A stretch of 64,000 nt of DNA from Sulfuriflexus mobilis. GTDB taxonomy: Bacteria > Pseudomonadota > Gammaproteobacteria > AKS1. The number at the start of each line of letters is the position of its first letter. The first letter of the stretch is position 1. The stretch spans positions 1,984,001 through 2,048,000 of the forward strand of contig NZ_AP018725.1 of the NCBI RefSeq assembly GCF_003967195.1, in the 5' to 3' direction. A program made the translations under genes and the position numbers. The notes beneath the pieces were generated by a model, which saw only the letters and a program-made list of their open reading frames with translations, had not been told where the DNA came from and made no database searches. Positions 35,247 to 49,899 of this stretch are shown in pieces.

Positions 35247-36602
35247 CTAGAACGGCATTTTACCCATACCCGGCAGGCCGCGCATAAGTTTTTTCATGCC
35301 CCCGCCCTTGCCCATTTTCTTCATCATCTTCTGCATCTGCTTGAATTGTTTGAGTAATTTATTCACATCCTGAACCTGCACACCCGAACCGGCGGCGATA
35401 CGCTTTTTCCGCGAGCCCTTGATGATGTCCGGTCGCTGGCGTTCACCCGGGGTCATGGAGTCGATAATCGCCCCCAGGCGCAGCATATCGCGGTCATTGA
35501 CCTGGTCTTTGACGTTGGCTGGCAGGTCGCCCATGCCCGGCAACTTGTCCATGAGACTCGCCATGCCGCCCATATTCTGCATCTGCCGCAGCTGCTCGCG
35601 GAAATCGGCGAGGTCAAAACCCTTGCCCTTTTTCAGCTTGTGGGCGAGTTTCTCGGCCTCCTTGTGGTCGACCTTGTGCTGGGCCTCCTCGATGAGGCTG
35701 AGCATGTCGCCCATACCGAGGATGCGTGAGGCCACACGCTCGGGGTGAAAGGCCTCCAGGGCGGTGGTTTTCTCGCCGACACCGAGGAATTTGATGGGTT
35801 TGCCGGTGATCTCACGCACCGACAGGGCGGCACCGCCGCGGGCGTCACCATCGGCCTTGGTCAGGACCACACCGGTCAGCGGCAGGGCCTCGTTAAAGGC
35901 CTGGGCGGTGTTCGCGGCATCCTGGCCGGTCATGCTATCGACCACAAACAGGGTCTCGATGGGATTGATGGCCGCATGTAAGCGCTTGATTTCATCCATC
36001 ATTTCCGCGTCGACGTGGAGTCGGCCGGCGGTATCGATGATGACAACATCAAAAAACTGTTTTTTCGCCTGCTCGATGGCGCCCTGACCGATAGCGACCG
36101 GGTCCTGCTCGGTCGAGCTGGGGAAAAACCCGGCACCGATCTCGGCGGCCAGGGTCTCAAGTTGTTTGATCGCCGCCGGTCGGTAGACGTCGGCACTGGC
36201 GACCAGCACTTTTTTCTTCTCGCGCTCGGCGAGGAATCGCGCCAGCTTGGCAACACTGGTGGTCTTACCCGCACCCTGCAGGCCCGCCATGAGGATCACG
36301 GCCGGCGGTGTGGTGTGCAGGTTCAGGGCCTCGTTGGCCTCGCCCATGACATGCACCAGCTCCTCGTGCACAATCTTGATCAGGGCCTGGCCCGGGCTCA
36401 GGCTTTGCAGGACCTCCTGACCCACCGCGCGCGCCCGGACCTTGTCGATAAAGGCCTTGACCACCGGCAGGGCCACATCGGCCTCGAGCAGGGCCATGCG
36501 CACGTCACGCAGGGCCTCTTTAATATTGTCTTCGCTAAGCCGCCCCTGGCCACGCAGGTTTTTCAGGGTCTTGCCTAGTCGTTCGGTAAGGGAATCAAAC
36601 AT
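35247..36602 (-). CDS. ffh: Signal recognition particle protein Ffh
   Basis: The 451-residue GTPase has the N domain (about 1-85), the G domain with GLQGAGKTT (P-loop), IIDTAGRLHVD, TKADGDARGG and the methionine-rich M domain (QMQNMGGMASLMDKLPGMG; RGLPGMGKMPF end) that binds 4.5S RNA and signal peptides. It targets inner membrane proteins with FtsY. A TATAAT overlaps the stop codon of the upstream metallo-hydrolase gene and may be its -10 box. Confidence 0.98.
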   Translation of the reverse strand: MFDSLTERLGKTLKNLRGQGRLSEDNIKEALRDVRMALLEADVALPVVKAFIDKVRARAVGQEVLQSLSPGQALIKIVHEELVHVMGEANEALNLHTTPPAVILMAGLQGAGKTTSVAKLARFLAEREKKKVLVASADVYRPAAIKQLETLAAEIGAGFFPSSTEQDPVAIGQGAIEQAKKQFFDVVIIDTAGRLHVDAEMMDEIKRLHAAINPIETLFVVDSMTGQDAANTAQAFNEALPLTGVVLTKADGDARGGAALSVREITGKPIKFLGVGEKTTALEAFHPERVASRILGMGDMLSLIEEAQHKVDHKEAEKLAHKLKKGKGFDLADFREQLRQMQNMGGMASLMDKLPGMGDLPANVKDQVNDRDMLRLGAIIDSMTPGERQRPDIIKGSRKKRIAAGSGVQVQDVNKLLKQFKQMQKMMKKMGKGGGMKKLMRGLPGMGKMPF

Positions 36603-36669
36603 GGGGGATTTTTATCTTGCCGCTATATCCGTTGACGAAATAAGGCCTTGTGCCGCCTCGAAACGGGGA

Positions 36670-37434
36670 TTATAACGTAAAGACCTCGCCACCCGACAGG
36701 CCTTTCAGCTTGCGGGACGGCATCTGCTCACAACACTCCTGCAGGATGCGCGTCTCTTCACCGGGTTTACGGTGGCTGATGTAGATCTCGGGGTCCAGCT
36801 GCAGTTTTTTCATGTCCTCGGCCAACAGGCTGGGGCAATAGTGCTTGGCCATCTTGCTCAGTTCGAGGTTGTGGTCGGCAAAGGCCGCCTCAACGATGAG
36901 CAGGTCCAGTTGTCCATGGGCGTTCAGGGCCGCCCAGAGGCTGTCATTCGTGCTGGTGTCACCACTGAAGGCAAAACTGCCGCTCTCGCAAGCCACCCGG
37001 TAGGCAACCGCCGGCACAATATGATTAACGGCAATCATCTCGATATCGCGGCCGTGATTCTCCCAGACCTCACCCGGCCGCATGGCCCGATAACTGAGGA
37101 CGGGCGACTCGGGGCGGGGCAGTTCGGCAAAGTCCGGCCAGACCACCCAGTTAAAGATATAGGACTGCAGGGCCTGCAAGGTGCTTTCCTGACCATGAAT
37201 AATGACCGGTTCCTTGACCAGGTCAAAAATGGTATCGATCAGCAGCGGGATGAAACAGACGTGGTCGAGGTGTGAATGCGTAACAAAAATATGCCGGATT
37301 CGGCCCATTTCTTCCAGGGTCAGGTCACCCAGCCCGGTGCCCGCATCGATGAGGATGTCGTCATCAATCAGCAACGAGGTACTGCGCAAGCCTGCGCCGA
37401 TACCACCACTACAGCCAAGAATCCGTACTTTCAT
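36670..37434 (-). CDS. MBL-fold hydrolase, class II cyclic-nucleotide phosphodiesterase-like
   Basis: The 254-residue protein has the metallo-beta-lactamase metal motif THSHLDHV (about 53-60), an early GCSGGIGAGLRSTSLLID and LIDAGTGLG pattern, a late FSGDTSTND aspartate and an ISHRKPG histidine. The arrangement resembles class II 3',5'-cyclic nucleotide phosphodiesterases and related RNase Z-like enzymes. The substrate cannot be told from sequence. It is upstream of ffh on the same strand. Confidence 0.75.
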   Translation of the reverse strand: MKVRILGCSGGIGAGLRSTSLLIDDDILIDAGTGLGDLTLEEMGRIRHIFVTHSHLDHVCFIPLLIDTIFDLVKEPVIIHGQESTLQALQSYIFNWVVWPDFAELPRPESPVLSYRAMRPGEVWENHGRDIEMIAVNHIVPAVAYRVACESGSFAFSGDTSTNDSLWAALNAHGQLDLLIVEAAFADHNLELSKMAKHYCPSLLAEDMKKLQLDPEIYISHRKPGEETRILQECCEQMPSRKLKGLSGGEVFTL

Positions 37435-37674
37435 ACTGATCTGATTTACCTGTGTAAATTCTTATTTATTATTGTAGTTAAATAAAGATCAGTCTGCCTT
37501 ATCTGGCCGCTGATTTCCGTATCCTTGTCACAAAACCCATTATCCCGCCATGCCCCAAGGTTGGGCCATTTCAGGCCATTGGCCCTTCAACCGAGGCGGC
37601 GAATGTGCCATTATTCGGTAAAATTTGAGCCTAACAGAGTTAACAATAAACGGCTACTGCCGGCGGCCAACAAC

Positions 37675-38481
37675 ATGAAAGTACTTATAATTACCAGTTT
37701 AACCGTATTCCTCTACCTGGGGACTACCCTGCTCCTGAGCCGGCGCCTGGCCAGTGGCATGGTCGCCAGCCAGGGCGCACGACTGGGCCTGATAGCCCTC
37801 GGTCTGGGTGCCGTGATCCTGCACGGCGGTCTCGTCTATAACACCATCTTTACCGAGGCCGGCCTGAACCTCGGTTTTTATAGCGCCGCCTCGCTGATCA
37901 TGAGCCTGGTCGCCCTGCTCATGCTGTTGGCTGCCATCACCCAACCCATCGAGAATCTCGGCATCGTAGTCCTGCCACTCGCGGCCATTAGCCTGTTACT
38001 CGATCAGTTTTTATCCTCACAGCACATCCTCGCGAGCAATACGACCCAGAATATCGAGATCCATATCATTCTTTCACTGCTCGCCTACAGCCTGCTAAGT
38101 ATCGCCGCCGTGCAGGCCGTGTTACTCGCCGTACAGGACTACCAGTTACGCCATAAACACCCGGGGGGCTTCATGCGCGCCCTGCCACCCATGCGGGTCA
38201 TGGAGTCACTGTTGTTCCAGATCATTGGCGTGGGCTTTTTCCTGCTCAGTCTGGCCCTGCTCAGTGGTATCATTTATCTCGAAGATATCTTTGCCCAGCA
38301 CCTGGTACACAAGACCGTGCTGTCCATCATCGCCTGGCTGGTCTTTGCCATCTTGTTATTCGGTCGCCGGCTGGCCGGCTGGCGTGGCCGCACGGCGATT
38401 CGCTGGACACTCGCCGGTTTTGTTACCCTGCTACTGGCCTATTTTGGTAGCAAGTTGGTACTAGAAATCATTCTTGCTTAA
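37675..38481 (+). CDS. ypjD: Cytochrome c assembly-like inner membrane protein (YpjD family)
   Basis: The 268-residue protein has about eight membrane segments and the layout of the CcsA/YpjD family: AVILHGGLVYNTIF, GFYSAASLIMSLVALLMLL, IEIHIILSLLAYSLLSIA and a final helix pair. YpjD is always near ffh and corB in gammaproteobacteria; its link to haem handling is inferred from the fold and not proven. The reading frame opens 50 codons earlier, but membrane-protein character starts at the ATG at 37675. About 240 bp before it hold AT-rich promoter-like DNA and a GGGCCA/TGGCCC dyad. Confidence 0.85.
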   Translation: MKVLIITSLTVFLYLGTTLLLSRRLASGMVASQGARLGLIALGLGAVILHGGLVYNTIFTEAGLNLGFYSAASLIMSLVALLMLLAAITQPIENLGIVVLPLAAISLLLDQFLSSQHILASNTTQNIEIHIILSLLAYSLLSIAAVQAVLLAVQDYQLRHKHPGGFMRALPPMRVMESLLFQIIGVGFFLLSLALLSGIIYLEDIFAQHLVHKTVLSIIAWLVFAILLFGRRLAGWRGRTAIRWTLAGFVTLLLAYFGSKLVLEIILA

Positions 38482-38541
38482 CGGCATGTTGGGCATCATT
38501 TATGCCCGCGCCAGGCAGACTCCACACGAGGCAAACTGTTC

Positions 38542-39831
38542 TTGAACGAATTACCTTTAGGCCTGTTGCTTGTTGCATTGGTCGTACTGATTATTATTTC
38601 AGGCTTTTTCTCCGGTTCGGAAACCGGGCTGATGGCCCTGAACAAATACCGCCTGCGTCACCTGGTGCGGGATAAACACGCGGGGGCTATGCGCGCTCAC
38701 CGTTTGCTCGAACACCCGGACAGGCTGATCAGCCTGATCCTGCTCGGCAACAATGCCGTCAACATCATGATCACCCTGCTTGCCGCGATCATTATGCTGC
38801 GCATGTTTGGTGAACTGAGTGTATTTGTCTCAACAGTTATCCTGACCTTTATCATGGTGTTGTTTGCCGAGGTGACACCCAAGACACTGGCCGCGCTGCA
38901 CCCGGAGCGTTTTGCCTTCCCGGCCACCTGGATCCTTAACCCCTTAATGCGGATTGGCTATCCGGTAGTCTGGTTCTTTAACAAATTGATGCATGGCATT
39001 TTCAAAATATTTCGCATCGACTCCTCGCACCAGGACTCCATGCACCTGAGCCCGGAAGAATTACGCACCGTGGTGATCGAGGCAGGCAGCATGATCCCGC
39101 GTTCTCACCAGGACATGCTGCTAAGTATCCTCGACCTTGAACAAGTCTCGGTGGATGACATCATGGTGCCGCGCGGAGAGATCGTCGGTATCGATATCGA
39201 AGATGACTGGCAGTCCATCCTCGATCAGTTATACAGCGCACAACACACACGCCTGCCCGTCTATCGTGGTGACATTAACCATGTTATCGGCATTGTGCAC
39301 CTGCGCCGAACTATCAAACTGCTGACCGAAGAAAACTTTAGCCGCGAGACCTTACTCGAGGTTGTACCCGAGGCCTACTTCGTCCCGGAAAGCACGCCCC
39401 TGCACACACAGCTCATCAACTTTCAGCGTGCCCGGCGCCGTATCGCCCTGGTCGTTGACGAATACGGTGATGTGCAGGGACTGGTGACGCTCGAAGATAT
39501 CCTTGAGGAAATCGTTGGTGAGTTCACCACCGACCCGGCCGCCAGTATCAAGGAAGTCCACCCGCAGGAGGATGGCACCTGGCTGGTCGATGGCAGTGCC
39601 AATATCCGTGAACTCAACAAACTCCTCAACTGGGACCTGCCCGTTGATGGGCCCAAGACCCTCAATGGGCTGATCCTCGAACACCTGGAGGCCATCCCCG
39701 AGGCCAGTACCAGCCTGAAGATCGCCGACTACCCGATTGATATCCTGCAGGTCAGCGATAATGCGGTAAAAACCGCACGGATTTACCCCTCACTCAGTAA
39801 TGAAACAGTCCAGAGTCAGACAGACGGCTGA
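38542..39831 (+). CDS. corB: CorB-like CNNM/HlyC-CorC membrane protein
   Basis: About 429 residues. A DUF21 membrane domain with four helices (about 8-145: FFSGSETGLMALNKYRL, NNAVNIMITLLA, LFAEVTPKTLAALHP) is followed by two CBS domains (VDDIMVPRGEIVGIDI; FVPESTPLHTQLINF, VVDEYGDVQGLVTLEDILEEIVGE) and a C-terminal CorC/HlyC domain. CNNM-type proteins export or regulate Mg2+. The start is a TTG at 38542 with GAGG upstream; no ATG lies nearby. It follows ypjD in the usual order. Confidence 0.92.
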   Translation: MNELPLGLLLVALVVLIIISGFFSGSETGLMALNKYRLRHLVRDKHAGAMRAHRLLEHPDRLISLILLGNNAVNIMITLLAAIIMLRMFGELSVFVSTVILTFIMVLFAEVTPKTLAALHPERFAFPATWILNPLMRIGYPVVWFFNKLMHGIFKIFRIDSSHQDSMHLSPEELRTVVIEAGSMIPRSHQDMLLSILDLEQVSVDDIMVPRGEIVGIDIEDDWQSILDQLYSAQHTRLPVYRGDINHVIGIVHLRRTIKLLTEENFSRETLLEVVPEAYFVPESTPLHTQLINFQRARRRIALVVDEYGDVQGLVTLEDILEEIVGEFTTDPAASIKEVHPQEDGTWLVDGSANIRELNKLLNWDLPVDGPKTLNGLILEHLEAIPEASTSLKIADYPIDILQVSDNAVKTARIYPSLSNETVQSQTDG

Positions 39832-39852
39832 TACCGTATGACGGGCGGCACA

Positions 39853-39880
39853 TTGAGCCTGTATGCCAATCAGCTATAAT
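39853..39880 (+). promoter_or_regulatory. Sigma-70 promoter of the FHA gene
   Basis: TTGAGC and a perfect TATAAT are 16 bases apart. Transcription would start at about 39887, only a few bases before the ATG at 39895. Confidence 0.65.
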
Positions 39881-39894
39881 TAGTTGCAGGACAA

Positions 39895-40566
39895 ATGGTT
39901 ACGGAAAATGCCTCAGTGCCAACACTAACACTGGCTTTTAAAAATAATACCCTGCAAGTCATCCCCCTGCGTGATGACATGATGACCATTGGCCGTGAAC
40001 CCTCTTCTGATATTTTTATCGACAGCCTGGCCGTTGCCCCACAGCATGCACGACTGATGCGACATGACGGACAATACACGCTGCAGAATCACCATGACGA
40101 GGAGGTCTTCGTCAATCACCAGCGGGTTAAGGAACACACCCTGCAAAATAATGACCTGATCCGTATTGGTAAACATACCCTGCGTTATGCCAGTGTCGGC
40201 GAGGCATTAGCCGACACACGGCCCGCGACCCTGGAGAAACCTGTCACGGCAACGGCCCCCACCGAGGTGGCAAGCACAGCCCCGCCGTCGAACAATACCA
40301 GCAAGGATGGCTGGTTGCAGGTATTGAGCGGCAGCCACCTCGGCAAGACCATCAAGTTACGCAGCGGCATGACCGACCTCGGCAAGATAGGCATCACCCC
40401 GGCCCTGATCTCCCTGCGTCGTGACGGCTACTTTATTGCCAACCTCGGTGAGAACGACAACCTTTGTGTGGGTGAAAACAACATAGGTGACAAGACCTGG
40501 CCGCTGAATGACGGTGACCTGATACAGATAGACAAACTCAAACTTCAATTTCATTTGCAATCGTAA
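39895..40566 (+). CDS. Tandem FHA-domain protein
   Basis: The 223-residue protein has an N-terminal FHA domain (TIGREPSSDIFIDS at about 31-44, then QHARL and NNDLIRIGKHTLRY) that should bind phosphothreonine peptides. A Pro/Thr/Ala-rich linker (about 105-135) leads to a second, degenerate FHA-like fold (LQVLSGSHLGKTIKL; ending GDLIQIDKLKLQF). No kinase is adjacent. It is followed by a PilZ gene 25 bp downstream, so the pair may connect Ser/Thr phosphorylation and cyclic di-GMP signals; this is inference. Confidence 0.85.
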   Translation: MVTENASVPTLTLAFKNNTLQVIPLRDDMMTIGREPSSDIFIDSLAVAPQHARLMRHDGQYTLQNHHDEEVFVNHQRVKEHTLQNNDLIRIGKHTLRYASVGEALADTRPATLEKPVTATAPTEVASTAPPSNNTSKDGWLQVLSGSHLGKTIKLRSGMTDLGKIGITPALISLRRDGYFIANLGENDNLCVGENNIGDKTWPLNDGDLIQIDKLKLQFHLQS

Positions 40567-40591
40567 ATGACATGGACAGAGGATTCTGGTT

Positions 40592-40966
40592 ATGAGTGAC
40601 TCACTACCCATCAATGAACATCGTCATCATCTACGCATTCTTTTTGAAGCCCCCGTCACCATCATTATCCGCGGTGAAAAATTCCAGAGCACGGCAATCG
40701 ACCTGTCCCTAAAGGGCGCACTGATCAAGCGCCCGGACAACTGGTCGGCAGTGGTCGGCGACGCCGGCATTTTGCAAGTCGCCCTCAGTGACGGTGAAAC
40801 GGTGATTGATATGGAAGTATCCGTGGCACATAGCGAAGGCCACAAGATCGGTTTTCACTGTGACCATATCGATATCGACAGTATTACCCACCTGCGTCGA
40901 CTGGTTGAACTCAATCTCGGTAATGAAGAATTACTGGAGCGTGAGCTGTCACATTTAAACGATTGA
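40592..40966 (+). CDS. PilZ-domain cyclic di-GMP-binding protein
   Basis: The 124-residue protein is a single PilZ domain with both binding motifs: RHHLR (RxxxR, about 11-15) and DLSLKGA (DxSxxG). It should bind cyclic di-GMP and pass the signal to a partner. It follows the FHA gene, with AGAGGA as ribosome site. The diguanylate cyclase of the Wsp-type operon is a candidate source of the ligand in the cell. Confidence 0.88.
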   Translation: MSDSLPINEHRHHLRILFEAPVTIIIRGEKFQSTAIDLSLKGALIKRPDNWSAVVGDAGILQVALSDGETVIDMEVSVAHSEGHKIGFHCDHIDIDSITHLRRLVELNLGNEELLERELSHLND

Positions 40967-40972
40967 TGATTT

Positions 40973-41083
40973 TGTACATGGATGTACGAATGTCACGAGA
41001 GGGCAGAAAGCCCGAAGTGACCGGCCTAGAACGGCTAAATGAATCAGCTGAAACAAAAAAAGCCAGCTAATGCTGGCTTTTTT
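40973..41083 (+). ncRNA. Structured 3' region or small RNA ending in a terminator
   Basis: Three stem-loops follow one another: GTACAT/ATGTAC (40973-40986), a long stem GTCAC...GTGAC enclosing GGGC/GCCC, and the terminator at 41061-41083. It is either the 3' end of the PilZ message or a separate small RNA. No known RNA family is assigned. Confidence 0.3.
41061..41083 (+). terminator. Intrinsic terminator after the FHA-PilZ genes
   Basis: AGCCAGC and GCTGGCT pair around TAAT and are followed by six T residues. It lies about 95 bp after the PilZ stop codon. Confidence 0.9.
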
Positions 41084-41252
41084 ATGTCGGTCTTTACTCT
41101 TACCTCAAACACCGCAAATACTGATTCATTCTGTCCTGAAAGAACAGAATCTTCTTTGCAGCCCATTCTTCTTTTATCATACACAGTAAAGCCACTGGCA
41201 TTACAACACGCAGAAACGCGGCCATGACAGAGAGGCATCCATAAGTCTTGTT

Positions 41253-41278
41253 ATTCCGTATACGAATATATGATATTC
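41253..41278. promoter_or_regulatory. Overlapping palindromes upstream of the first DUF4395 gene
   Basis: GAATAT-ATG-ATATTC (41264-41278) is a perfect dyad, and it overlaps ATTC-CGTATAC-GAAT (41253-41267). ATTC...GAAT dyads are typical of ArsR-type thiol or sulfide sensors such as BigR/SqrR, but no such regulator is in the window. Confidence 0.45.
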
Positions 41279-41362
41279 AATTTCCGTCTGTTATGGAGAA
41301 ATTTAGAATGAAGTAGCATTGCAGCTATCCGTTACTGGGCAGATATATAGCTGGAAGACACT

Positions 41363-41851
41363 ATGAACGAAAAAATGAAGCAACAGCAGGTTGATCAAAA
41401 TGAGATACGCACCCATCAGGTATTCATCCTGACCGGGTTGTTGATCGGGTTTGTCACCGATCGCTGGGAATGGGTCGCGGTTCAGGCTGTCGTATTTTTA
41501 CTTACTGTCTTGCTCCCCACCCTGGGCCCTTATGTGCTGGTTTATACAAAAGTGTTAAAACCTCTGGGGCTGCTTAAGCCCGATATCAGGGTCGATGTTC
41601 CCCAGGCCCATCGTTTTGCCATGAGTATTGGATTGTTGGTTACCGGCTATTCCAGCTATCTGCTCTATAGCGGTAATACTGTGCTGGGGTGGTCTTTAGT
41701 CTGGCTGGTGTTAATTCTGGGGGCGATCGCCCTGGCAGGTTGGTGCGCAGGCTGCTTTACCTACTATATGCTTAATCGCATGGGACTCGGTGGCTTTTTC
41801 AAATATGGAGCCATCAGCGGGATCTTCCCGGGGGCTCGACCAGGCAAATAG
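41363..41851 (+). CDS. DUF4395 membrane protein, paralogue 1
   Basis: The 162-residue protein has about four membrane segments and the DUF4395 family pattern: an N-terminal EIRTHQVFILTG, a PLGLLKPDIRV loop, HRFAMSIGLLVTGYS, and a late CxxC at C128 and C131 (WCAGC) followed by a basic MLNRMGL. Function is unknown. The membrane-end CxxC could take part in thiol exchange with the thioredoxin-like protein encoded downstream (inference). It has its own upstream dyads and is separated from paralogue 2 by 334 bp. Confidence 0.75.
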   Translation: MNEKMKQQQVDQNEIRTHQVFILTGLLIGFVTDRWEWVAVQAVVFLLTVLLPTLGPYVLVYTKVLKPLGLLKPDIRVDVPQAHRFAMSIGLLVTGYSSYLLYSGNTVLGWSLVWLVLILGAIALAGWCAGCFTYYMLNRMGLGGFFKYGAISGIFPGARPGK

Positions 41852-42104
41852 ACCATATGATTTATCCCATAGTCAAATGTTTATCGCCCGGCCCAGGGCT
41901 AATCAATTGCCTATCTTAGGCATTGCAGAATAACCTGCAGCCACCTGTTTCCTAAAGGTTTCCAGTACTGCCGTAGTGCTGAAGCTACAGGCGACTATGT
42001 ATACTTCTAGTGCATAACACCTATAACCTTAAACACCATTATCAAAGTAGACAAAATAATCTAGTATTTCATACATGGTGATTATTTCCCTCTGTCGGAA
42101 ACAA

Positions 42105-42118
42105 CAATATTAATATTG
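42105..42118. promoter_or_regulatory. Perfect 14-bp palindrome upstream of the second DUF4395 gene
   Basis: CAATATTAATATTG equals its own reverse complement and lies about 70 bp before the start. The surrounding gap 41852-42185 shows no gene; it is AT-rich in its second half and probably holds the promoter of the three genes that follow. Confidence 0.4.
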
Positions 42119-42185
42119 CTGACTTCAGGTGCTGTCGCGCAATGACATGTCCATCTATTAGTTAAGTTATGAAGGGGTAATGCAT

Positions 42186-42716
42186 ATGAATACTAATGAA
42201 AATGCAATTAATGACGATCGTTTCAACACGGTTCCGGATGATAGATGGCTTGATGCCAGCGAAATTCGCACAGGCCAGTTTCTGGTTGTTGCGATGGTTG
42301 TTGCTGCCTATGTGTTTGACAGATGGGAGTTGGTTGCATTCCAGTGTGGCATTTTTGTGCTGGGTGTTATTTCACCTAAAACACTGGACGTCTACTCATG
42401 GATCTACAAGGGTATTTTGAAACCATTAGGCATTCTGAAACCAGACATGCGCATAGATAACATCGAAGCATACCGCTTTGCAAACATGATAGGCATGGTG
42501 GTCTCTGGAACGGCGGCTTATCTCATCTATAGTAACCATGCCACGATTGGCTGGGGTCTGGCGTGGATGATGATTGGCCTTGGTAGCCTGGCGTTTCTTG
42601 GTTGGTGTGCCGGCTGCTTTATGTATTATATGATCCAAAAAACAGGCATCAAGGGATTCTTTGGCCATATACAGGTTGGCAGTGTTTTTCCGGGTGTCAG
42701 AGCGCCTCGTCCTTGA
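42186..42716 (+). CDS. DUF4395 membrane protein, paralogue 2
   Basis: The 176-residue protein is a clear homologue of the protein at 41363-41851: EIRTGQFLVVAMVVAAYVFDRWE, LKPLGILKPDMRI, YRFANMIGMVVSG and the CxxC WCAGC at C141 and C144 before MYYMIQKTGIKGFF. A longer N-terminal polar segment differs. Start at 42186 follows AAGGGG by eight bases; an ATG two codons earlier is less well placed. It lies 21 bp before a thioredoxin-like gene, a pairing I associate with this family in other phyla (from memory). Confidence 0.75.
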   Translation: MNTNENAINDDRFNTVPDDRWLDASEIRTGQFLVVAMVVAAYVFDRWELVAFQCGIFVLGVISPKTLDVYSWIYKGILKPLGILKPDMRIDNIEAYRFANMIGMVVSGTAAYLIYSNHATIGWGLAWMMIGLGSLAFLGWCAGCFMYYMIQKTGIKGFFGHIQVGSVFPGVRAPRP

Positions 42717-42737
42717 ATTGGACCCGAGGTATTTAAT

Positions 42738-43148
42738 ATGTACGAGCGTTTACTTATTGTAATTGTTGCTGCCGTTCTGGGCGCGACTGTATATCTGCTA
42801 TTACGCCGGTCACAGTTGAATAGAGCTCAGAATGCGGCAGTCGAGCAAAACGGAGTTCAACTAAAAGCTGGCATACTTCATATTGTCTATTTTTGGTCAG
42901 AACATTGTTCGCAGTGCAAAAACGCCCAAAAGCCGATATTAGAAGGATTGTTAGAAAAAGTTGGTCAGGAGAATGTTGAGCTTCTTACATTACGCGTAGA
43001 AGATTTTGGCAGTATAGCCAAATCATGGGGCGTGCGAACACTTCCGACCACGTATATTGTTGACCAAAAATGTAATGTTACTCATGTAAATAACGGACTT
43101 ACGTCCGAATCACACCTGCTGCTGCAGTTAAACCTGAATACGGATTAA
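42738..43148 (+). CDS. Membrane-anchored thioredoxin-like protein
   Basis: The 136-residue protein has an N-terminal membrane helix (about 5-22) and a thioredoxin fold with active site C57-S-Q-C60 (YFWSEHCSQCKNAQKP) and the cis-proline in RTLPTTYIVD. The domain should face the periplasm if the helix is an uncleaved signal anchor (positive charges RRSQLNR follow the helix, so the opposite side is possible). GAGGT lies seven bases before the ATG. Partner proteins are probably the DUF4395 proteins upstream. Confidence 0.85.
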   Translation: MYERLLIVIVAAVLGATVYLLLRRSQLNRAQNAAVEQNGVQLKAGILHIVYFWSEHCSQCKNAQKPILEGLLEKVGQENVELLTLRVEDFGSIAKSWGVRTLPTTYIVDQKCNVTHVNNGLTSESHLLLQLNLNTD

Positions 43149-43336
43149 GTAAGTTATTAAAGAGTTCACTATGAATAGTGACACCATCAAATATTTGAGT
43201 TTTCTAAGCCTGTTTGTTAGAGCACAGTTCGTCTGATCTGGACAACCCATTACCGTAAACATCAAATGCCTGTCACATGATACGACACTTTTGAAATGCA
43301 ACCTTATTAGAAAGCAACTCACTACAGAGAAAGACT

Positions 43337-43813
43337 ATGGCCTTGAATGAAGATAAAAATGGCGCATCGGTAAAATTGCCTCCTCCAGTAGTATTTATAC
43401 TATTTATACTCATCGCATATGGCATACATTATTACTTTCTGGCCGTAGAAATTAGCAGTATGTCTTTTTTGTTCTACATCGGCTCATTCTTCGTAACGCT
43501 AGGCCTTACCACCTTACTTGTGGCGACAGTTTCATTTAAGCGCGCGCAAACAAATATTAAACCCTGGAAGCCAACAACTAAAATCATATCAACCGGTATA
43601 TTTTCATACTCACGGAATCCTATTTATCTTGCGTTTTGCATTGTAACTATTGGCATAGGCCTCATTGTTAATAATCTCTGGATTACCTTAAGCTTTATAC
43701 CTTCCATATCTGTCATATACTTCACCGCCATCAAGAAGGAAGAGTCTTATTTGGAAAAGAAATTTGGGCAAGACTATTTGGCATATAAAGAAAAAGTCAG
43801 GCGTTGGTTCTAA
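43337..43813 (+). CDS. Isoprenylcysteine/phospholipid methyltransferase-like membrane protein
   Basis: The 158-residue protein has about four membrane segments and the C-terminal methyltransferase signature of the ICMT/PEMT family: GIFSYSRNPIYLAF, then EESYLEKKFGQDYLAYKEKVRRWF. Bacterial members methylate unknown membrane substrates. It may share a message with the DUF4395-thioredoxin genes, but 188 bp separate it. Codon use looks more AT-rich than its neighbours. A terminator at 44036-44064 follows. Confidence 0.8.
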   Translation: MALNEDKNGASVKLPPPVVFILFILIAYGIHYYFLAVEISSMSFLFYIGSFFVTLGLTTLLVATVSFKRAQTNIKPWKPTTKIISTGIFSYSRNPIYLAFCIVTIGIGLIVNNLWITLSFIPSISVIYFTAIKKEESYLEKKFGQDYLAYKEKVRRWF

Positions 43814-43910
43814 TGAAAGCTAGCAGCATGTCAGGCCGAGTCATTACTAATGTACAAAAAAACAGGTCAGCACCCTTTTTTATTAAGGGGAATAACGACA
43901 AACAACAATG

Positions 43911-43940
43911 ATAATAAGACTTATTTGTCACCGCCCCCTT
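43911..43940 (+). repeat. GACTTATTTGTCACC element, copy D1
   Basis: The stretch TAATAAGACTTATTTGTCACC followed by GCCCCCTTT matches copies at 46490 and 49863. Here it is enclosed by an eight-base inverted repeat ATGATAAT / ATTATCAT. The remaining gap to 44035 holds nothing I recognise. Confidence 0.6.
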
Positions 43941-44035
43941 TGATTATCATGGGGCCGGTATAGCGTTCATCGGCCACCCCCGCACGGGATAGTCCATTTG
44001 CTTAATCTGTTCGCGCTGGTTGAAAATAAATGACG

Positions 44036-44064
44036 CGAGCCTTTAATTTTTCGGCTCGTTTTTT
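44036..44064 (+). terminator. Intrinsic terminator after the methyltransferase gene
   Basis: CGAGCC and GGCTCG form a stem around an AT-rich loop and are followed by six T residues on the plus strand. It also separates this unit from the minus-strand microprotein gene. Confidence 0.8.
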
Positions 44065-44070
44065 CCGGTT

Positions 44071-44166
44071 TCATACACCGCCCGTTGCCACCTTGGCATA
44101 GACAACAAAAAACAATCCTGCAAAGACCAGCACCGTCAGCAATAGCTTCAGCCATAAGAACTTCAA
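44071..44166 (-). CDS. 31-residue single-pass membrane microprotein
   Basis: A TTG start at 44166 follows AGAGGAGAAG, a strong ribosome site. The reading frame encodes a short Lys-Leu start (KFLWLK), one hydrophobic helix (LLLTVLVFAGLFFVVYA) and a short KVATGGV tail, then TGA. This is the classic layout of small membrane regulators that sit beside a larger membrane complex. It has no named relative that I recognise, and no larger gene in its transcript. The call rests on ribosome site and helix, not homology. Confidence 0.5.
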   Translation of the reverse strand: MKFLWLKLLLTVLVFAGLFFVVYAKVATGGV

Positions 44167-44286
44167 CTTCTTCTCCTCTTGTGAAAATACAAATATATTA
44201 CTGACCACACATCGTTTTATACAAAGGATGTGCCCCCTTTTATTTTTAGTTTTTACTATAACCCCAATTATCGCTTCTTTAATGTG

Positions 44287-44607
44287 TTACTGAACAGGCA
44301 TCTGCATCATCTCAGACACCTCAAGCGAACCGTCAATTTCAAGAAAAGGGCAGTCCTGTGCAATCGATAGTGCAGCCTCCCTCGATTCAGCTTTAATAAT
44401 CGAGAACCCAGACATGGCACTACTCCCCCCTTCTCTTACAGTTCCATCAGGGCTTACTGTAACGGTATCCTTTAACGGAATGGTAGGAATGACAACCGAC
44501 TCGCCGAGTGATGATAGCCATTTCATATATTTCGCAAAATGCTTATTAGCTTCCTCCGGGCTGGATGGCTGATTACCGCCCAGATAAACAAATACGAACT
44601 GTTTCAT
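44287..44607 (-). CDS. YCII-related (DGPF-type) protein
   Basis: The 106-residue protein has the YCII/DGPF pattern: KQFVFVYLGGN start, a KYMKWLSSLGES helix, and GFSIIKAESREAALSIAQDCPFL before a beta strand. Family members are small ferredoxin-like folds of unclear enzymatic role, often near sigma factors of the ECF type; none is here. It forms a single-gene unit. Confidence 0.8.
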   Translation of the reverse strand: MKQFVFVYLGGNQPSSPEEANKHFAKYMKWLSSLGESVVIPTIPLKDTVTVSPDGTVREGGSSAMSGFSIIKAESREAALSIAQDCPFLEIDGSLEVSEMMQMPVQ

Positions 44608-44673
44608 TCTAATTTCCTCACTAAATAAAATTTCGATAAATCTTGCCGCCTGCCATGCCTGCAGTTTATTTTT

Positions 44674-45297
44674 TTAAAAACGAACGGATTTAGATGCCAG
44701 CACTTTGAGATAAGTCGCATAGGTTAATACCGCGCCTTGATTAATACCCAGGTCGTTGAAGGCATCCATCATTTTCTGAAAGGCCGCTTCGTTTTGAGGT
44801 TCTGCCTTGAGTGTTTCAAGAGAATCGAGCAGGGGCTTGATATCTTTCTCATCCAGGTATGTTTTCAGCATGGTGATATCATTATCCAGTCTTTCTGCAT
44901 TAACAGGCTGAAAGCTGATTTCATTTTGCGCATTGTCAGATTCCACGAATTCCGGTGGTTCCTCATACACATTCCTGGCAAGGGCTGATTGTGCAGTTTC
45001 CGGGGATACTGTCTCAGCACTGTCCTCCCCTGTTATTTTCTGCTTCAGCGCATCGACAAAGGCGTTAAATTTCTCTGCATTCGGGTTATTTAATAACAGA
45101 GAGAAAACCGGACGTCCCTTATGAGGGCTGTAAAATGCCAGCTCTGAACCATTTATGACAGGTTCAGGGTCAAGGGTGGACAAATCAACGGTTAATTTCT
45201 GTTCCTTAAACAAGGATTTTATGCGCACGTATACCGTATCATCGACTATCTCAAATTCCCTGCTGCCTTTTAGAAAGCGTTTTTGTACAAGTTTCAT
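44674..45297 (-). CDS. Hypothetical cytosolic protein
   Basis: The 207-residue protein has no signal peptide or membrane helix. The first 90 residues look like beta strands (FEIVDDTVYVRIKSL, KLTVDLSTLDPEPVI, RPVFSLLLN) as in a PH-like or scaffold fold. A Glu/Pro-rich acidic linker (about 95-130) follows, then a helical C-terminus. I recognise no family. The start has no clear ribosome site, and both flanks are AT-rich. It is transcribed in the same direction as its neighbours at 44287 and 45390. Confidence 0.55.
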   Translation of the reverse strand: MKLVQKRFLKGSREFEIVDDTVYVRIKSLFKEQKLTVDLSTLDPEPVINGSELAFYSPHKGRPVFSLLLNNPNAEKFNAFVDALKQKITGEDSAETVSPETAQSALARNVYEEPPEFVESDNAQNEISFQPVNAERLDNDITMLKTYLDEKDIKPLLDSLETLKAEPQNEAAFQKMMDAFNDLGINQGAVLTYATYLKVLASKSVRF

Positions 45298-45389
45298 AGT
45301 GATAGCATTGTCATTATTTCAAAAATTCCAAAATATAGAGTTTATATGAAATTCAGTATAAATACCTTTTCATATAACCCCAAGTATCG

Positions 45390-46418
45390 TTATTGTTTTT
45401 TCAGTATACGCTTCAGCGATGCGACAAACCGTTCATACCACCCTGCGGGCTTAACACTTTTCACACAACTCAAGGCGAAACGTTCCCGGCGATCAGACAT
45501 CCAGTCCTGCTTGTAAGCGTCATTACCCGTCAGAAAGTCGATCTCCTCTACCTTATCGGTATCGATCACGTACTCCATCAGGAAGCTGGTCAGTATTGAA
45601 CCCGGTGAATACGGCTTCCAGGCCTTATCATACGCCAGCCTGAATATACTCGCTTTACCGTGGCCTACAAACCAGAGCTGTGCCGCGACGGGCTGCTCTT
45701 TGATATACAGAATCGCAAGCCGGCTCCAGCCCGCTTTTGAAAAGCGCGCCACCATAGTATCCACAAAGCCCGCATACTGTTCGTTTGCCTTCCAGCTGGC
45801 GCTGTAGACCGCATAGTAATCAGGCATTTTGTGCGGTACGTCATCGCCGCTAAAAAGGTGAATGTCGTAACCGTGTTCACGTTCAAGTTTACGTTTTTTA
45901 CGCGAGATCGTATTGCGCAGTTTAGCAGGTCGCGCCGCCATATACTCCGCATAGGACTGCCCCTGCACGCGCAAAAACCAGTTATAAAACCGAAATAGAC
46001 GATCACAGCCAAACCCGGCCGCTTGCATGCTGCCCTGCAAGCCCTCCAGATGACCATCCTTGTCGGCCACCGGCTCCAATAACAATGCCTCAAGCGGCAA
46101 TTGATGCAAACCCTCAACCAGGCAAGCGAGAACCTGCTGTTGATCATCCTTAGCAAGTAGCAGGCTATAAAGTGGCGTATAGCGATGTTTAAGGGCGTAG
46201 CCGATATTCCCGGCACTCTTCATCAGCGGCAGGATGGCCATGACCTTGCTGCCAGCTACCACGCAGGCCAGGGCCATCGTTTCATCGTCATTGAGGGCGG
46301 TGGCCACATTCTCAAACCACGGGCGCGAGAAAAAGAGGCTGTCTTTCTCTGCCTGCAAAAACAGTGCATTCGCACTCTCGGGGAGTTGATTCCAGTCGGT
46401 GTAACATACGAACTTCAT
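45390..46418 (-). CDS. FemAB/BioF2-type GNAT-fold acyltransferase
   Basis: The 342-residue protein has the double-GNAT pattern of the Acetyltransf_6 family used in envelope and exopolysaccharide synthesis: AEKDSLFFSRPWFENV near the start, PAKLRNTISRKKRKLERE (about 140-160), and YIKEQPVAAQLWF ... FRLAYDKAWKPYSPGSIL ... EIDFLTGNDAYKQDW at the C-terminus. The last motif is the strongest match. It could transfer an acyl or aminoacyl group; the substrate is unknown. No polysaccharide genes are adjacent. Confidence 0.82.
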   Translation of the reverse strand: MKFVCYTDWNQLPESANALFLQAEKDSLFFSRPWFENVATALNDDETMALACVVAGSKVMAILPLMKSAGNIGYALKHRYTPLYSLLLAKDDQQQVLACLVEGLHQLPLEALLLEPVADKDGHLEGLQGSMQAAGFGCDRLFRFYNWFLRVQGQSYAEYMAARPAKLRNTISRKKRKLEREHGYDIHLFSGDDVPHKMPDYYAVYSASWKANEQYAGFVDTMVARFSKAGWSRLAILYIKEQPVAAQLWFVGHGKASIFRLAYDKAWKPYSPGSILTSFLMEYVIDTDKVEEIDFLTGNDAYKQDWMSDRRERFALSCVKSVKPAGWYERFVASLKRILKKQ

Positions 46419-46489
46419 CACGATAAAGGGCTATGACACCTTTAATGGTATTAATGCTTGCAGCGCAGGGTTCGAGTGATAAACCGCAA

Positions 46490-46526
46490 TGGTAATGAGA
46501 CTCATTTGTCGCTGACCCCATTTTTC
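46490..46526 (+). repeat. GAGACTCATTTGTC element, copy D2
   Basis: TGGTAATGAGACTCATTTG followed by TCGCTGACCCCATTTTT is close to copy D3 at 49863-49899 (TGGTAATGAGACTTATTTG, then TCACCGACCCC) and to D1. It lies between the transporter stop and the acyltransferase start. Confidence 0.75.
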
Positions 46527-46539
46527 CATTTTTGGCGCG

Positions 46540-48372
46540 TTACAAAGCATACATGGCCGGTAGCAGGATAGACAGCCCGATCCAGACGATGACGGTAAGG
46601 GGCACACCGACACGAACAAAATCCATAAACCTGTAACCACCCGCACTCATCACCAGCAAGTTGGTCTTGTAGGCCATGGGTGTGGCGTAACTCATGTTGG
46701 CACCAAACAGTACCGCAATGACAAACGGTTCCGGGTCAACATTCAGTTGCTGTGCGATGCTGATCGCAATGGGTGTGCCAATCACGGCCGCGGCATTATT
46801 CGACACGACATTCGTCATAATCGCCATCAACAGCATCAATCCCGACAGGATGACCGCCGGCGTGGCGCCACTCGTGAGCGCGACAAATACCTGTGCCAGA
46901 TATTCGGCCCCCCCTGTCTTTAGTAGCGCCGCACCCAGTGCCAAACTTGCCACCACGATAAGGATCACCTGCGTACTTAAGGCCATGGCGGCATGGCGCC
47001 ATGTCAGGCAACGGCTAATCAGCATCAGCAAGACGCCACACACGGCACTGATCGCGATCGGTGCGAGTCCGAACGCCGAGACGACAATGACACCTAGCAT
47101 AATCAATAGGGCCGTTATAGATTTTTCGGTGTGCGGCAGATCGGCCGTGGCGTCGAGCACGAGTAACTCTCCGTTACGTTTGATCTCGGCGATAGTGTCA
47201 AGGTTGCCCTGCACAAGCAGGACATCACCTGTGCGCAAATTGACCTGTTCGATCTTCTCGCGCAAGGTCTCTGGCGACTGACCTGGGCGGTGTATCGCCA
47301 GCACCATTAACTGGTAGCGATCTGAAAAGTTGATCTGTCTCAGTGTCATCCCCAGCAAGGGTGAGCCCTGCAATACGACGATCTCGGCAATCTGTTGCCC
47401 CTCATCGGACAAGGGGTGCTCTGCATCGACCTGAATGTCACCGACATAAAGAGCGGTACCCAGTGCCTTCTCGAACTCCATCAGGTGCTCAGGTGTGTCA
47501 TTGACGAGTAATCTGTCGCCGGCATAGATATGGGCGTCCGGCAATGGCAGAATAAAGGTCCCGCTGTCACGCATAATGCGTGACACGGCCAGCATGCCAC
47601 CGGTCTTTTCGATGAGCTCACCCAGCGTCTTGCCGGCGGCAAATTCATCTTCAACAACGGCGAGTTGTGCAGCAAAAATTCTCGGGGAGGTATCAGTAAG
47701 CGAGGCCTCCCGTGCGGGTAACAGGCGCGGCGCAATCAACCACAGATAGACAATCGCGATACAGGCGACGATGGCCGCGGGGACAAAAAAATCGAACATC
47801 TGTATACGTCGCAGGCCCATGTCTGCGGCCACCGACACCACCAGCAAGTTGGTCGAGGTGCCGATGCTGGTGCTCATACCACCAACCAGGGTTGCAAACC
47901 CCATGGGCATTAACACCCCGGAGGCCGGTGTCCCGGTCCGCAACGACACACTGACAAGGATGGGTAGCAGCAACACGACGATGGGGACGTTGTTGACAAA
48001 GGCACTGAGGAAGGCGCCAACTATCAGCGTCAATAGCATGCTCAGTGCAGGGCTCGTTCGCCACAAACGCGCCAGATTGCGGCCAAGGGGCTCGAGTGCA
48101 CCGGTGCGCACCAGGCCATTGCCGGCAATCATCAATGCGCATACCGCGACCAGCGCCTCATGACCGAAGCCGCTGAAAAAGGTCAGCGCCTCGAGGTGTT
48201 CCCCATCAGCCATCGTATACGGAAAGGCAGAAAAACCGCTGGTCAGTATGGCCAGAATGAACAGGCTCGATGTCTCGATGGCAACATCATCACGAGTAAA
48301 CAGATACAGGGCAAGCACGGTCAGTGCCAGAACGGCCAGAGCATGAGGATCGGGAAGCGGTGGTAGATTCAT
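46540..48372 (-). CDS. SLC13/DASS-type anion transporter with two RCK-C domains
   Basis: The 610-residue protein has about five helices at each end and two soluble TrkA-C (RCK_C) domains in the middle (about 205-375: VEDEFAAGKTLGELIEKTG, VLQGSPLLGMTLRQINF, TGDVLLVQGNLDTIAEI). Family signatures are the N-terminal NNVPIVVLLLPI and SIGTSTNLLVV and the C-terminal NNAAAVIGTPIAISIAQ and TNLLVMSAGGY. Related proteins move sulfate or dicarboxylates; the substrate is not clear here. It stands alone. Confidence 0.88.
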   Translation of the reverse strand: MNLPPLPDPHALAVLALTVLALYLFTRDDVAIETSSLFILAILTSGFSAFPYTMADGEHLEALTFFSGFGHEALVAVCALMIAGNGLVRTGALEPLGRNLARLWRTSPALSMLLTLIVGAFLSAFVNNVPIVVLLLPILVSVSLRTGTPASGVLMPMGFATLVGGMSTSIGTSTNLLVVSVAADMGLRRIQMFDFFVPAAIVACIAIVYLWLIAPRLLPAREASLTDTSPRIFAAQLAVVEDEFAAGKTLGELIEKTGGMLAVSRIMRDSGTFILPLPDAHIYAGDRLLVNDTPEHLMEFEKALGTALYVGDIQVDAEHPLSDEGQQIAEIVVLQGSPLLGMTLRQINFSDRYQLMVLAIHRPGQSPETLREKIEQVNLRTGDVLLVQGNLDTIAEIKRNGELLVLDATADLPHTEKSITALLIMLGVIVVSAFGLAPIAISAVCGVLLMLISRCLTWRHAAMALSTQVILIVVASLALGAALLKTGGAEYLAQVFVALTSGATPAVILSGLMLLMAIMTNVVSNNAAAVIGTPIAISIAQQLNVDPEPFVIAVLFGANMSYATPMAYKTNLLVMSAGGYRFMDFVRVGVPLTVIVWIGLSILLPAMYAL

Positions 48373-48519
48373 CTGACTGCGAGCGCCCCGCCAAGACCCG
48401 TTGTAGTGTCATTGAACATATGGACATCCTAACACCTGACTTGCTTATACGTCACCGTTAAAGAAGCCGCCAGTCCGTATCGGTACACCCTACACTCATT
48501 TCTGAAGGAATTATTAGGA

Positions 48520-48552
48520 ACAGACCACGTTTGATTTTAAAACGTGGTCTGT
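48520..48552. repeat. ACAGACCACGTTT hairpin (element E1)
   Basis: Perfect 13-base arms ACAGACCACGTTT and AAACGTGGTCTGT enclose seven bases. The same GTGGTCTGTCCCC end occurs at 55821-55842. It lies in the 453-bp gap after the start of the SLC13 gene; the rest of the gap holds only element B1. Confidence 0.8.
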
Positions 48553-48697
48553 CGCCTATTGCACAGCCATACAAAAACATTGTAAGGCCGAGATTTTAGA
48601 ATTATTCGGAGTGTCCCGACGCCCCTCTTGTTTAGCGTTCACTCTCGCGATATGTGCACTGCATATTCTTATTCATCCGGCCACCCCTCACCGGTAA

Positions 48698-48784
48698 TTC
48701 GAAAGGTTAAACAGGGTCAGAGAGGAATTAGCAGTAATATTCCAGTCTTCTTATATTAGAACAAATTGCTCTGACCCGGTTTTT
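48698..48784. repeat. GGGTCAGAG palindrome, copy B1
   Basis: The block TTCGAAAGGTTAAACA, the palindrome with ends GGGTCAGAG and CTCTGACCC, and the tail CGGTTTTT are repeated nearly base for base at 52364-52451. The inside AGTCTTCTTATATTAGAACA is shared. B1 and B2 are in the same orientation and flank the unknown exported protein and katG. Confidence 0.9.
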
Positions 48785-48825
48785 AGGGATTTGACTCGAC
48801 GCAATAAAGGTAGTTAATTTAGAGT

Positions 48826-49842
48826 ATGGAGAAAATCTGGATGCAGGCGGTGCTGATTCTTGTAATCGGCGCGATTGGATTGCCCACTGTTGCTGCAGGG
48901 AATGGTATCGTCGTTAACAAGCTGGCGGTAAAGCAGATTCCGTATCATAATCCTGATCCTGCAGCCGGCCCGCTGGTCAATCTTCCATATTTCGATGTCC
49001 AAAACGGGCTCCGATGGAATAACGATTTAGTCCATACCGAAACTACGGGGGATTGCGACCGGGTTCCACGGCCGGTGAATGTCAATGGCTACCCGATTTA
49101 TCCACGACGTACTCACTTGGCAAAGCCGCGTGTCGACGAACGGCACTGCCTGAAGGAAATTGACGGTAGGGTAACGAGCAAGAGCGTCCTCATCGGGGTT
49201 GATTCAACGGACGGGGTTCGTTGGCAACGGCCGATGGTCTTCCCATCCGGAAAACGTGAATTTCAAGAATATGTTATTGGCGCGACGCCTGATGGCCTGG
49301 TGTTGAATATTCTCGAGGTGCTGTCGCCCGAAACCGGTAAGACCATCTTTCCAGCGCCGGTAAAAGAAATTGCCTCGGAGAATCGCAGTGTGCCTAAATA
49401 TCGATTTACAGGCGCGGGGCAGTTTCGTCCATCCACGAAACGTTTTTACGTCTATGATGCGGAGGTGACACTATTTTCGTCAACCGGCGGTTTGTACGAA
49501 ATCGACCCGGTATCCGATGACAAGAAACTTATCCAGTCGGCGAAATCTACGCTCTGGCGGGGTCATATAATTATCGAAAAAATGGCGCTTAATGAAGAAC
49601 TGGGGGTTTTATTGCTCGCGAAGCGACTGGAACAACGTGGCCCGGGTTGGGTTGCTTTCTCAGTGTTTGATCTTGCCACACAACGCGAAGTGTTCGAAGA
49701 GCGTTTTGGTGATAACTGCTATTGTACGGACCCCTATGTCGTATTGGGCAAGAATGGTGATGTAGGATTCTCGTACCGTAATCAGAACGATAATAATTAT
49801 GGATTGGTACATTACCGCATAACGCGAAGTACAGACCGTTAA
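48826..49842 (+). CDS. Exported protein of unknown function
   Basis: The 338-residue protein has a signal peptide (hydrophobic core about 7-22, likely cut after AAG/AG near 24). The mature part has scattered beta strands and six or so cysteines (GDCDR, RHCLK, DNCYC), which could form disulfides. Repeats such as YEIDPVSDDKK and FSVFDLATQREV suggest a beta-propeller-like fold, but I recognise no family. It lies between palindromes B1 and D3, as if a cassette. An ATG five codons in is an alternative start. Confidence 0.65.
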   Translation: MEKIWMQAVLILVIGAIGLPTVAAGNGIVVNKLAVKQIPYHNPDPAAGPLVNLPYFDVQNGLRWNNDLVHTETTGDCDRVPRPVNVNGYPIYPRRTHLAKPRVDERHCLKEIDGRVTSKSVLIGVDSTDGVRWQRPMVFPSGKREFQEYVIGATPDGLVLNILEVLSPETGKTIFPAPVKEIASENRSVPKYRFTGAGQFRPSTKRFYVYDAEVTLFSSTGGLYEIDPVSDDKKLIQSAKSTLWRGHIIIEKMALNEELGVLLLAKRLEQRGPGWVAFSVFDLATQREVFEERFGDNCYCTDPYVVLGKNGDVGFSYRNQNDNNYGLVHYRITRSTDR

Positions 49843-49862
49843 CGATAGCGGCACCGGCAGTT

Positions 49863-49899
49863 ATGGTAATGAGACTTATTTGTCACCGACCCCTTTTAT
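49863..49899 (+). repeat. GAGACTTATTTGTCACC element, copy D3
   Basis: ATGGTAATGAGACTTATTTG followed by TCACCGACCCCTTTTAT lies 20 bases after the stop of the exported protein. It matches D2 at almost all positions and D1 in its centre. Only one half of a palindrome is seen. Confidence 0.75.

Follow-up and report, generated by a model that had tools for sequence, protein, structure and literature searches.

What does a membrane protein with a conserved pair of cysteines do beside a thioredoxin that is itself tethered to the membrane? The question is raised by a locus of Sulfuriflexus mobilis (Gammaproteobacteria), in which two members of the family DUF4395 (PF14340), here called DUF4395-A and DUF4395-B, an anchored thioredoxin and a methyltransferase-like membrane protein are encoded one after the other at positions 41,363 to 43,813 of the 64,000-nucleotide stretch that was analysed (positions 1,984,001 to 2,048,000 of contig NZ_AP018725.1), hereafter the window. 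Pfam assigns no function to DUF4395, and in the literature searched the family is named in two papers only and in passing, once among proteins listed as lineage-specific and once in the hypothetical-protein table of a UV expression study, with no function given. Our reading, to which we assign a probability of about one half, is that DUF4395-B offers a cytosol-facing membrane thiol, which would take sulfane sulfur or a disulfide and be reset by its own thioredoxin. That the two proteins are partners in thiol chemistry is likely, since the pair recurs, this type of thioredoxin is found only with it, and both proteins are predicted on the same face of the membrane. More generally, DUF4395 has been little studied and seems to be a family that hands on sulfur or electrons at the membrane. 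How sulfur travels between the membrane, its carriers and the compartments that handle it is not well understood, and the pairing with a tethered thioredoxin, the natural fusions with rhodanese and, in a single genome, a position at the head of a run of encapsulin and cysteine-desulfurase genes give these small proteins, with their obvious cysteines to mutate, a testable sulfur/thiol role at the membrane.

The locus and its genes

DUF4395-B (42180..42716, forward strand) is a membrane protein of 178 residues, with its CxxC codons at 42606-42608 and 42615-42617. The anchored thioredoxin (42738..43148, forward strand; 136 residues), which begins 21 bp behind it, has a single N-terminal membrane helix at about residues 4-22 and a CSQC motif encoded at 42906-42917. 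DUF4395-A (41363..41851, forward strand; 162 residues; CxxC codons 41744-41746 and 41753-41755) lies 328 bp upstream of DUF4395-B and has no thioredoxin immediately downstream, while the gene for a 158-residue membrane protein resembling the PEMT/ICMT family of methyltransferases (43337..43813, forward strand) follows 188 bp behind the thioredoxin. The initial annotation had placed the four open reading frames (ORFs) correctly and had read their motifs correctly as well: WCAGC stands at the end of the fourth transmembrane segment (TM4) in both DUF4395 proteins, CSQC stands in the thioredoxin, and all four proteins score above the Pfam cut-offs. Namely, the DUF4395 profile matches at 83.0 and 85.1 bits (curated cut-off 24.5), over positions 1-130 and 2-130 of 130; the thioredoxin matches PF00085 at 35.3 bits (cut-off 23.5), with its CxxC and the conserved proline stretch TLPTT in place; and the methyltransferase matches PEMT at 47.7 bits (cut-off 25) and ICMT at 35.6 bits (cut-off 24). 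None of the NCBIfam models reaches its own cut-off with any of the four proteins. In particular, the thioredoxin stays below the TrxA/TrxC equivalog cut-offs (36.0 against 96.8 for TIGR01068, the others likewise under), and the methyltransferase below that of the isoprenylcysteine methyltransferase equivalog NF040696 (54.9 against 160). Almost every PDB match of the thioredoxin is to an ordinary thioredoxin, TrxA being one of these.

Recurrence of the pair across genomes

DUF4395 occurs in 37 of 369 genomes of the class, in 34 of them above cut-off. Among the class members whose sequence was examined, which are those of the 37 genomes other than G100, G161, G306, G180, G184 and G194 (the last three under cut-off) and other than the second match of G108, the window type is restricted to the source genome, G046 and G135. 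In both of the latter a thioredoxin gene stands directly behind the DUF4395 gene, in the same order and on the same strand, after 16 bp in G046 and 11 bp in G135. A model of the thioredoxin (A3), run over the 369 genomes with no completeness limit, unlike the DUF4395 scan, gave E values of about 1e-70 in these same three genomes and one further match at E 4e-11. Because both models, that of the DUF4395 type and that of the thioredoxin, were built from the three pair-bearing genomes, the fact that neither gene is seen alone is not an independent test. That said, we consider it extremely improbable that the two are chance neighbours with unrelated functions: the pair is known from three genomes and three related DUF4395 genes go without it, but order, strand and gaps of 11-21 bp are the same in three different families whose surroundings are otherwise unlike, and the thioredoxin type was not seen elsewhere in the 369 genomes.

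The methyltransferase, which the initial annotation had counted as part of the set, is not next to the DUF4395-thioredoxin pair in G046 or in G135, as judged by eye (L039, L045). The conserved unit is DUF4395-B with its thioredoxin; the four-gene set is too wide, and a role of the methyltransferase is not supported.

Beyond the class sample, the type model (A2) matched the source genome alone in a phylum sample of 398 genomes, one of four genomes in the order of G046 (G046 itself), and five of 54 in the order of G135, namely G135, G936, G937, G943 and one chance match. A match of this model in G938 was rejected by eye as a chance match within a CcmF-like gene. The thioredoxin is present in three of the six genomes of the window-type clade, those closest to the source genome. 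In G936, G937 and G943 (L205, L206, L207) the neighbour of DUF4395 is a divergent LysR-type gene, checked with Pfam for one of them. These genes bear on a further explanation, according to which the membrane pair would serve not as an enzyme but as a sensor of redox state or sulfur, or as a scaffold; its thiol state would signal to regulators, or it would hold the thioredoxin at a membrane site. SoxT1B, a YeeE-type membrane protein with conserved cysteines, does act in signalling according to the available part of PMC11582611. However, the LysR-type genes accompany members that lack the thioredoxin, and no regulator adjoins the window pair; we regard a sensor or scaffold as unlikely.

Searches with DUF4395-B itself found nothing further: used as a single query it retrieved no relative from the genome contigs, and nothing from plasmids. 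The alignment across all types was too divergent for patterns, and classical members of the family were therefore the queries of the wider search, which confirmed 570 stretches; the best 80 of these entered the analysis. On plasmids a classical DUF4395 found four carriers, and the Microbacterium copy, used as query in its turn, gave the same four. According to record titles, the family spreads over several phyla and also over plasmids. One record titled Beijerinckiaceae (L103, G751) holds a classical DUF4395 that groups with sequences of Ignavibacteria/Bacteroidetes type, and the assembly is possibly mislabelled or mixed.

In a tree of the family, the seven window-type proteins form one clade (support 100/99). 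DUF4395-B groups with the gene of G046 (100/100), to which it is 66% identical, and DUF4395-A falls just outside this pair (98/93), with 52% identity to the protein of G135 and 44% to DUF4395-B. From its position it follows that the duplication predates the split of DUF4395-B from the G046 gene. In other words, the duplication that had been proposed for the locus is real but old, DUF4395-B being closer to a gene of another taxonomic family than to its neighbour, and DUF4395-A is an old paralogue. A third DUF4395 gene of the source genome (3.11 Mb, a single contig) is of the classical type and lies at C1:901055.

Cysteine motifs and rhodanese fusions

The motif G-x-C-x-x-C is present in 100 of 100 DUF4395 ORFs of a first set found with a hidden Markov model (HMM) built here, in which one gene is counted twice (L036 and L067). 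Among the 131 loci of a wider set, ORFs were found in 124, and CxxC in 125 of 126 ORFs; the only ORF that lacks it is a fragment of a frameshifted Microbacterium gene, and the other fragment carries the CxxC. The gene in question lies on a plasmid (L149, 4971-5717), and its N-terminal and CxxC parts apparently stand in different frames. The seven loci of 131 that the HMM missed are all fusions to rhodanese with CxxS in place of CxxC, and the notion that CxxC is universal in DUF4395 was rejected on their account. The cysteine pair is, then, not invariant over the whole Pfam family, and the first cysteine is still kept.

The types, told apart by simple sequence patterns, differ in what accompanies this core. 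Three cysteine pairs, in the outer half of TM4, in the core and in the tail, are found in 94 of 96 classical ORFs; in the classical protein of L067, for instance, C128/C131 lie in the outer half of TM4 and C161/C166 in the cytosolic tail. The long type has the core and the tail pair (11 of 11). Of the remaining 15 ORFs, most of which belong to a short type from the class of G751, 12 show no pair besides the core. The initial annotation had made its case depend on the CxxC being kept next to thioredoxins, and it is: in the three genomes that have the thioredoxin, the core pair is present in all four DUF4395 proteins of the window type, and it is their only pair. Three more sequences of the clade likewise lack the outer and tail pairs.

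The DUF4395-rhodanese fusions are proteins of 258-284 residues and occur in nine genomes of the class (G004, G013, G036, G038, G233, G263, G275, G292 and G361; loci L040, L041, L043, L044, L059, L060, L064, L025 and L029). Both Pfam domains, DUF4395 followed by rhodanese, are over cut-off in all seven fusions tested, those of G263 and G361 having been recognised by motif only, and the rhodanese site C.SG.R is present in the fusions of all nine genomes. The core of the membrane domain aligns as HFCxLS, with the first cysteine kept and the second replaced by serine. This weakens the claim of a universal CxxC and strengthens the claim that the first cysteine is the one that matters. Rhodaneses act on sulfur, and the fusions strengthen the view that the partner of DUF4395 is a sulfur or thiol protein.

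A different, small motif, A[IM]GHExxWxLHNxC, extends the C-terminal tail in some members of the family (L015, L017) and is also found as a separate small protein after DUF4395, at 2246-2491 of L046 and in the second small gene downstream in L047.

Gene neighbourhoods of the family

The genes adjoining DUF4395 were surveyed at 79 loci, as the 104 same-strand genes within 150 bp, those of the window, G046 and G135 included and L067 and L159 left out as duplicates; a control consisted of 85 distant genes, after 19 of 104 drawn (window genes and repeats) had been left out. Among the first 25 of the 125 families tallied, the close neighbours include 13 class-V aminotransferases, eight zinc-type dehydrogenases, six AhpC-TSA proteins, three thioredoxins, two rhodaneses and two HMA proteins, with the proviso that families overlap and that thioredoxins may be counted under AhpC-TSA too. 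None of these families occurs twice in the control, and the class-V aminotransferases at most once; granting one control gene, their excess (Aminotran_5) has p 0.002, uncorrected for relatedness. Two of these aminotransferases, examined closely, are best matched by SufS, under its cut-off.

Individual loci point in the same chemical direction. In L157, DUF4395 lies 29 bp before the shell gene of a family 2A encapsulin, which in turn overlaps the gene for a cysteine-desulfurase cargo, shell and cargo both being above NCBIfam cut-offs. Single cases above cut-off are SoxB (L063), CysK (L181) and peroxiredoxin (L178, L187). On the Microbacterium plasmid (L149), an MBL-rhodanese resembling persulfide dioxygenases, TauE, a rhodanese and a thioredoxin surround DUF4395; on a Thiothrix plasmid, a classical DUF4395 overlaps a gene whose product begins with a thioredoxin-like (DsbH) domain; and a DsrE_2 gene lies about 1.7 kb from the pair of G135.

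The same neighbourhoods also suggest another explanation, namely that DUF4395 is a soft-metal protein of the MerT type, for copper, mercury or arsenic, in which the pair would receive metal from a carrier in the periplasm or the membrane and deliver it to the cytosol, while the thioredoxin does no more than keep the cysteines reduced. Cysteine pairs fit metal as well as they fit sulfur. What is more, HMA proteins resembling MerP or CopZ (under NCBIfam cut-offs) lie directly before or overlap DUF4395 in L183 and L179, L183 having in addition a metal-sensing repressor and a small thioredoxin-like protein; copper genes surround L150; and an annotated arsenate/arsenite oxidoreductase small subunit and cytochrome c peroxidases are found near L147. 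However, the two HMA genes stand against the far larger number of class-V aminotransferases, AhpC-TSA proteins, thioredoxins and rhodaneses given above, the nine rhodanese fusions keep a single core cysteine, and no metal-related gene was seen beside the window pair. A role in metal transfer is in our judgement rather unlikely.

Predicted topology and structure

Charges were counted in seven window-type and five classical proteins. The loop between TM2 and TM3 and the stretch after TM4 are rich in lysine and arginine, which places the core cysteine pair at the inner face. In the three thioredoxin anchors, the three to five residues before the helix are neutral or acidic and those after it rich in arginine, so an N-out/C-in orientation is expected, with the thioredoxin domain in the cytosol. 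On these charge rules, CxxC and thioredoxin are predicted on the same, cytosolic face, as an interaction of the kind put forward in the initial annotation would have it. A simple scale found all four transmembrane segments in only part of the proteins, and two in DUF4395-A and -B.

The AlphaFold2 model of DUF4395-B (predicted local distance difference test, pLDDT, 75.5; predicted template modelling score, pTM, 0.60) has helices at 26-46, 50-64, 66-83, 95-117, 121-139 and 144-169, that is, four helices of transmembrane length, the second in two segments, and a C-terminal helix, with C143 directly before the last. That of the classical protein of L067 (pLDDT 82.8, pTM 0.78) has C144 directly before helix 145-153. 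In other words, the first core cysteine immediately precedes a helix in both models. Fold searches with the two models gave no PDB match at E <= 0.001; at a second look, the matches are helical bundles with Z up to 8.3 and 6.1, and the absence of any DsbD, CcdA, DsbB or VKOR chain among the matches listed carries no weight as evidence. Run against PDB chains, the DUF4395 profile found no match at E up to 1, and DUF4395 is the only Pfam match at E up to 10 in four of four clade members, HMMER filters dropping most weak matches.

These results bear on the manner of transfer that had been proposed for the locus, a transmembrane relay of electrons or sulfur like that of DsbD or CcdA, in which electrons from the cytosolic thioredoxin would pass through DUF4395 to an outer partner. 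The three pairs of nearly all classical ORFs would suit such a relay. The window proteins, however, have one conserved cysteine pair, which leaves a relay across the membrane unsupported for them; their clade lacks the outer and tail pairs, no outer partner was recognised nearby, the thioredoxin is predicted on the inner face, and DUF4395 is the sole Pfam match. We consider a relay very unlikely here. In this sense, the proposal of electron or sulfur transfer survives as a thiol partnership and as sulfur/thiol chemistry, supported by pairing, neighbourhoods and fusions, and is not supported as transfer across the membrane.

Interpretation

The sulfur/thiol chemistry is supported by the neighbourhoods and the rhodanese fusions; for the DUF4395-B unit, its course, the direction of transfer and the substrate are what we infer, on a predicted topology and fold. 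DUF4395-B and the tethered thioredoxin would form a two-protein thiol unit on the cytosolic side of the inner membrane. The reactive thiol would be that of the first WCxxC cysteine, which is predicted where TM4 ends towards the cytosol, immediately ahead of a helix; it would accept either sulfane sulfur, as a persulfide, or an oxidising equivalent, the donor being a partner at the membrane or a small molecule. The second cysteine would then resolve this to a disulfide, with release of sulfide in the case of a persulfide, and the membrane-held thioredoxin, fed by the ordinary thioredoxin reductase of the cell, would reduce the disulfide. In other branches of the family, a fused or adjacent rhodanese, a cysteine desulfurase or a peroxiredoxin may take the place of the thioredoxin.

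A number of observations weigh against this reading. The pair is found in three genomes only, which also supplied the models used for counting, and G936, G937 and G943, which have WCIGC and belong to the same clade, are without a thioredoxin directly adjacent, two of their contigs ending about 300 bp behind the DUF4395 gene. The common face of CxxC and thioredoxin comes from charge rules, and the N-terminal tails, which ought to share the side of the core pair, are net acidic in all 12 DUF4395 proteins, which alone would favour their lying outside; the DUF4395-B model is only of middling quality. As for the neighbourhoods, the majority of close neighbours are non-sulfur genes, and the excess of class-V aminotransferases is for the most part due to a single group of related genomes. 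No sulfur gene is annotated beside the copy on the Sulfurovum plasmid, and the classical copy of the source genome adjoins sigma-factor-like, TetR-like and efflux genes, with no obvious sulfur/thiol gene as judged by eye. Finally, the metal-related genes of L183 and L150, described above, lie by DUF4395 as well.

A broader proposal, which we hold to be tentative and rather unlikely, is that DUF4395 proteins are undescribed membrane conduits for sulfane sulfur or electrons. The three classical pairs would be strung along TM4 and the tail, starting in the outer half of the membrane and ending in the cytosol, and would transfer their load to dedicated cytosolic acceptors, such as an encapsulated cysteine desulfurase, a rhodanese or a peroxiredoxin; the window clade would be a cut-down version served by thioredoxin.

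Sequence context of the locus

The genes lie in an AT-rich block (40967..45389; no strand assigned) with a GC content of 0.426 against a window mean of 0.522, which possibly represents one or more lineage-specific insertions. GC is weak evidence here, 5% of equal-sized stretches of the window being equally AT-rich, and DUF4395-A, at 0.507, is near the mean. At this length, the lowest GC of the window (0.383) is found elsewhere, at 52001-56423, possibly an acquired segment. The PilZ gene is conserved in three genomes of the same genus (G001-G003), where it is followed by none of the genes that come next in the window; in their place are a RadA-like gene in G002 and another gene, perhaps identical, in G001 and G003. 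An empty insertion site could not be read in these three genomes, two of whose contigs stop 0.6 and 2.4 kb on. An Rfam scan of 36000-50000 and scans for promoters and terminators gave nothing beyond chance, and a repeat search found short two-copy repeats only, the longest being the conserved WCAGC stretch itself.

Comparison with known systems

In DsbD and CcdA, membrane cysteines are likewise served by thioredoxin. There, however, the two cysteines lie in different transmembrane helices and electrons are passed outward, whereas the window proteins have one conserved pair in one motif, predicted at the inner face. Closer at hand are the classical PF14340 members, which share with the window clade the Pfam domain, four core transmembrane helices and a G-x-C-x-x-C ending TM4; the window clade is shorter, lacks the pairs of upper TM4 and tail, and is in some members paired with a thioredoxin. 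The rhodanese fusions have the same membrane domain and also a sulfur/thiol partner, but the partner is fused and the second core cysteine is a serine.

Two known sulfur systems resemble neighbourhoods of relatives. The MBL-rhodanese, TauE and rhodanese genes found with DUF4395 in L149 can be likened to the sulfane-sulfur circuit CsoR-PDO-TauE-rhodanese of Streptomyces (PMC7533328), although that paper does not mention DUF4395 and the circuit genes are absent next to the window pair. As to the encapsulin run of L157, family 2A encapsulin systems with cysteine desulfurase have been linked to sulfur (PMC8049743, PMC8346489), and serine acetyltransferase and rhodanese are their most enriched accessories according to the portion of PMC8346489 at hand.

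The nearest functional precedent that we have seen, by analogy, is that of the SoxT, PmpAB and TsuA proteins with their TusA-like partners, as presented in the accessible part of PMC11582611. YeeE/TsuA/SoxT and PmpA/PmpB belong to a separate family, and import of thiosulfate or sulfur has been shown for TsuA and SoxT1A. Like DUF4395, they are membrane proteins with conserved cysteines and, in the TusA-like proteins, have a cytosolic sulfur-carrier partner, and PmpA and PmpB, too, have four predicted transmembrane helices.

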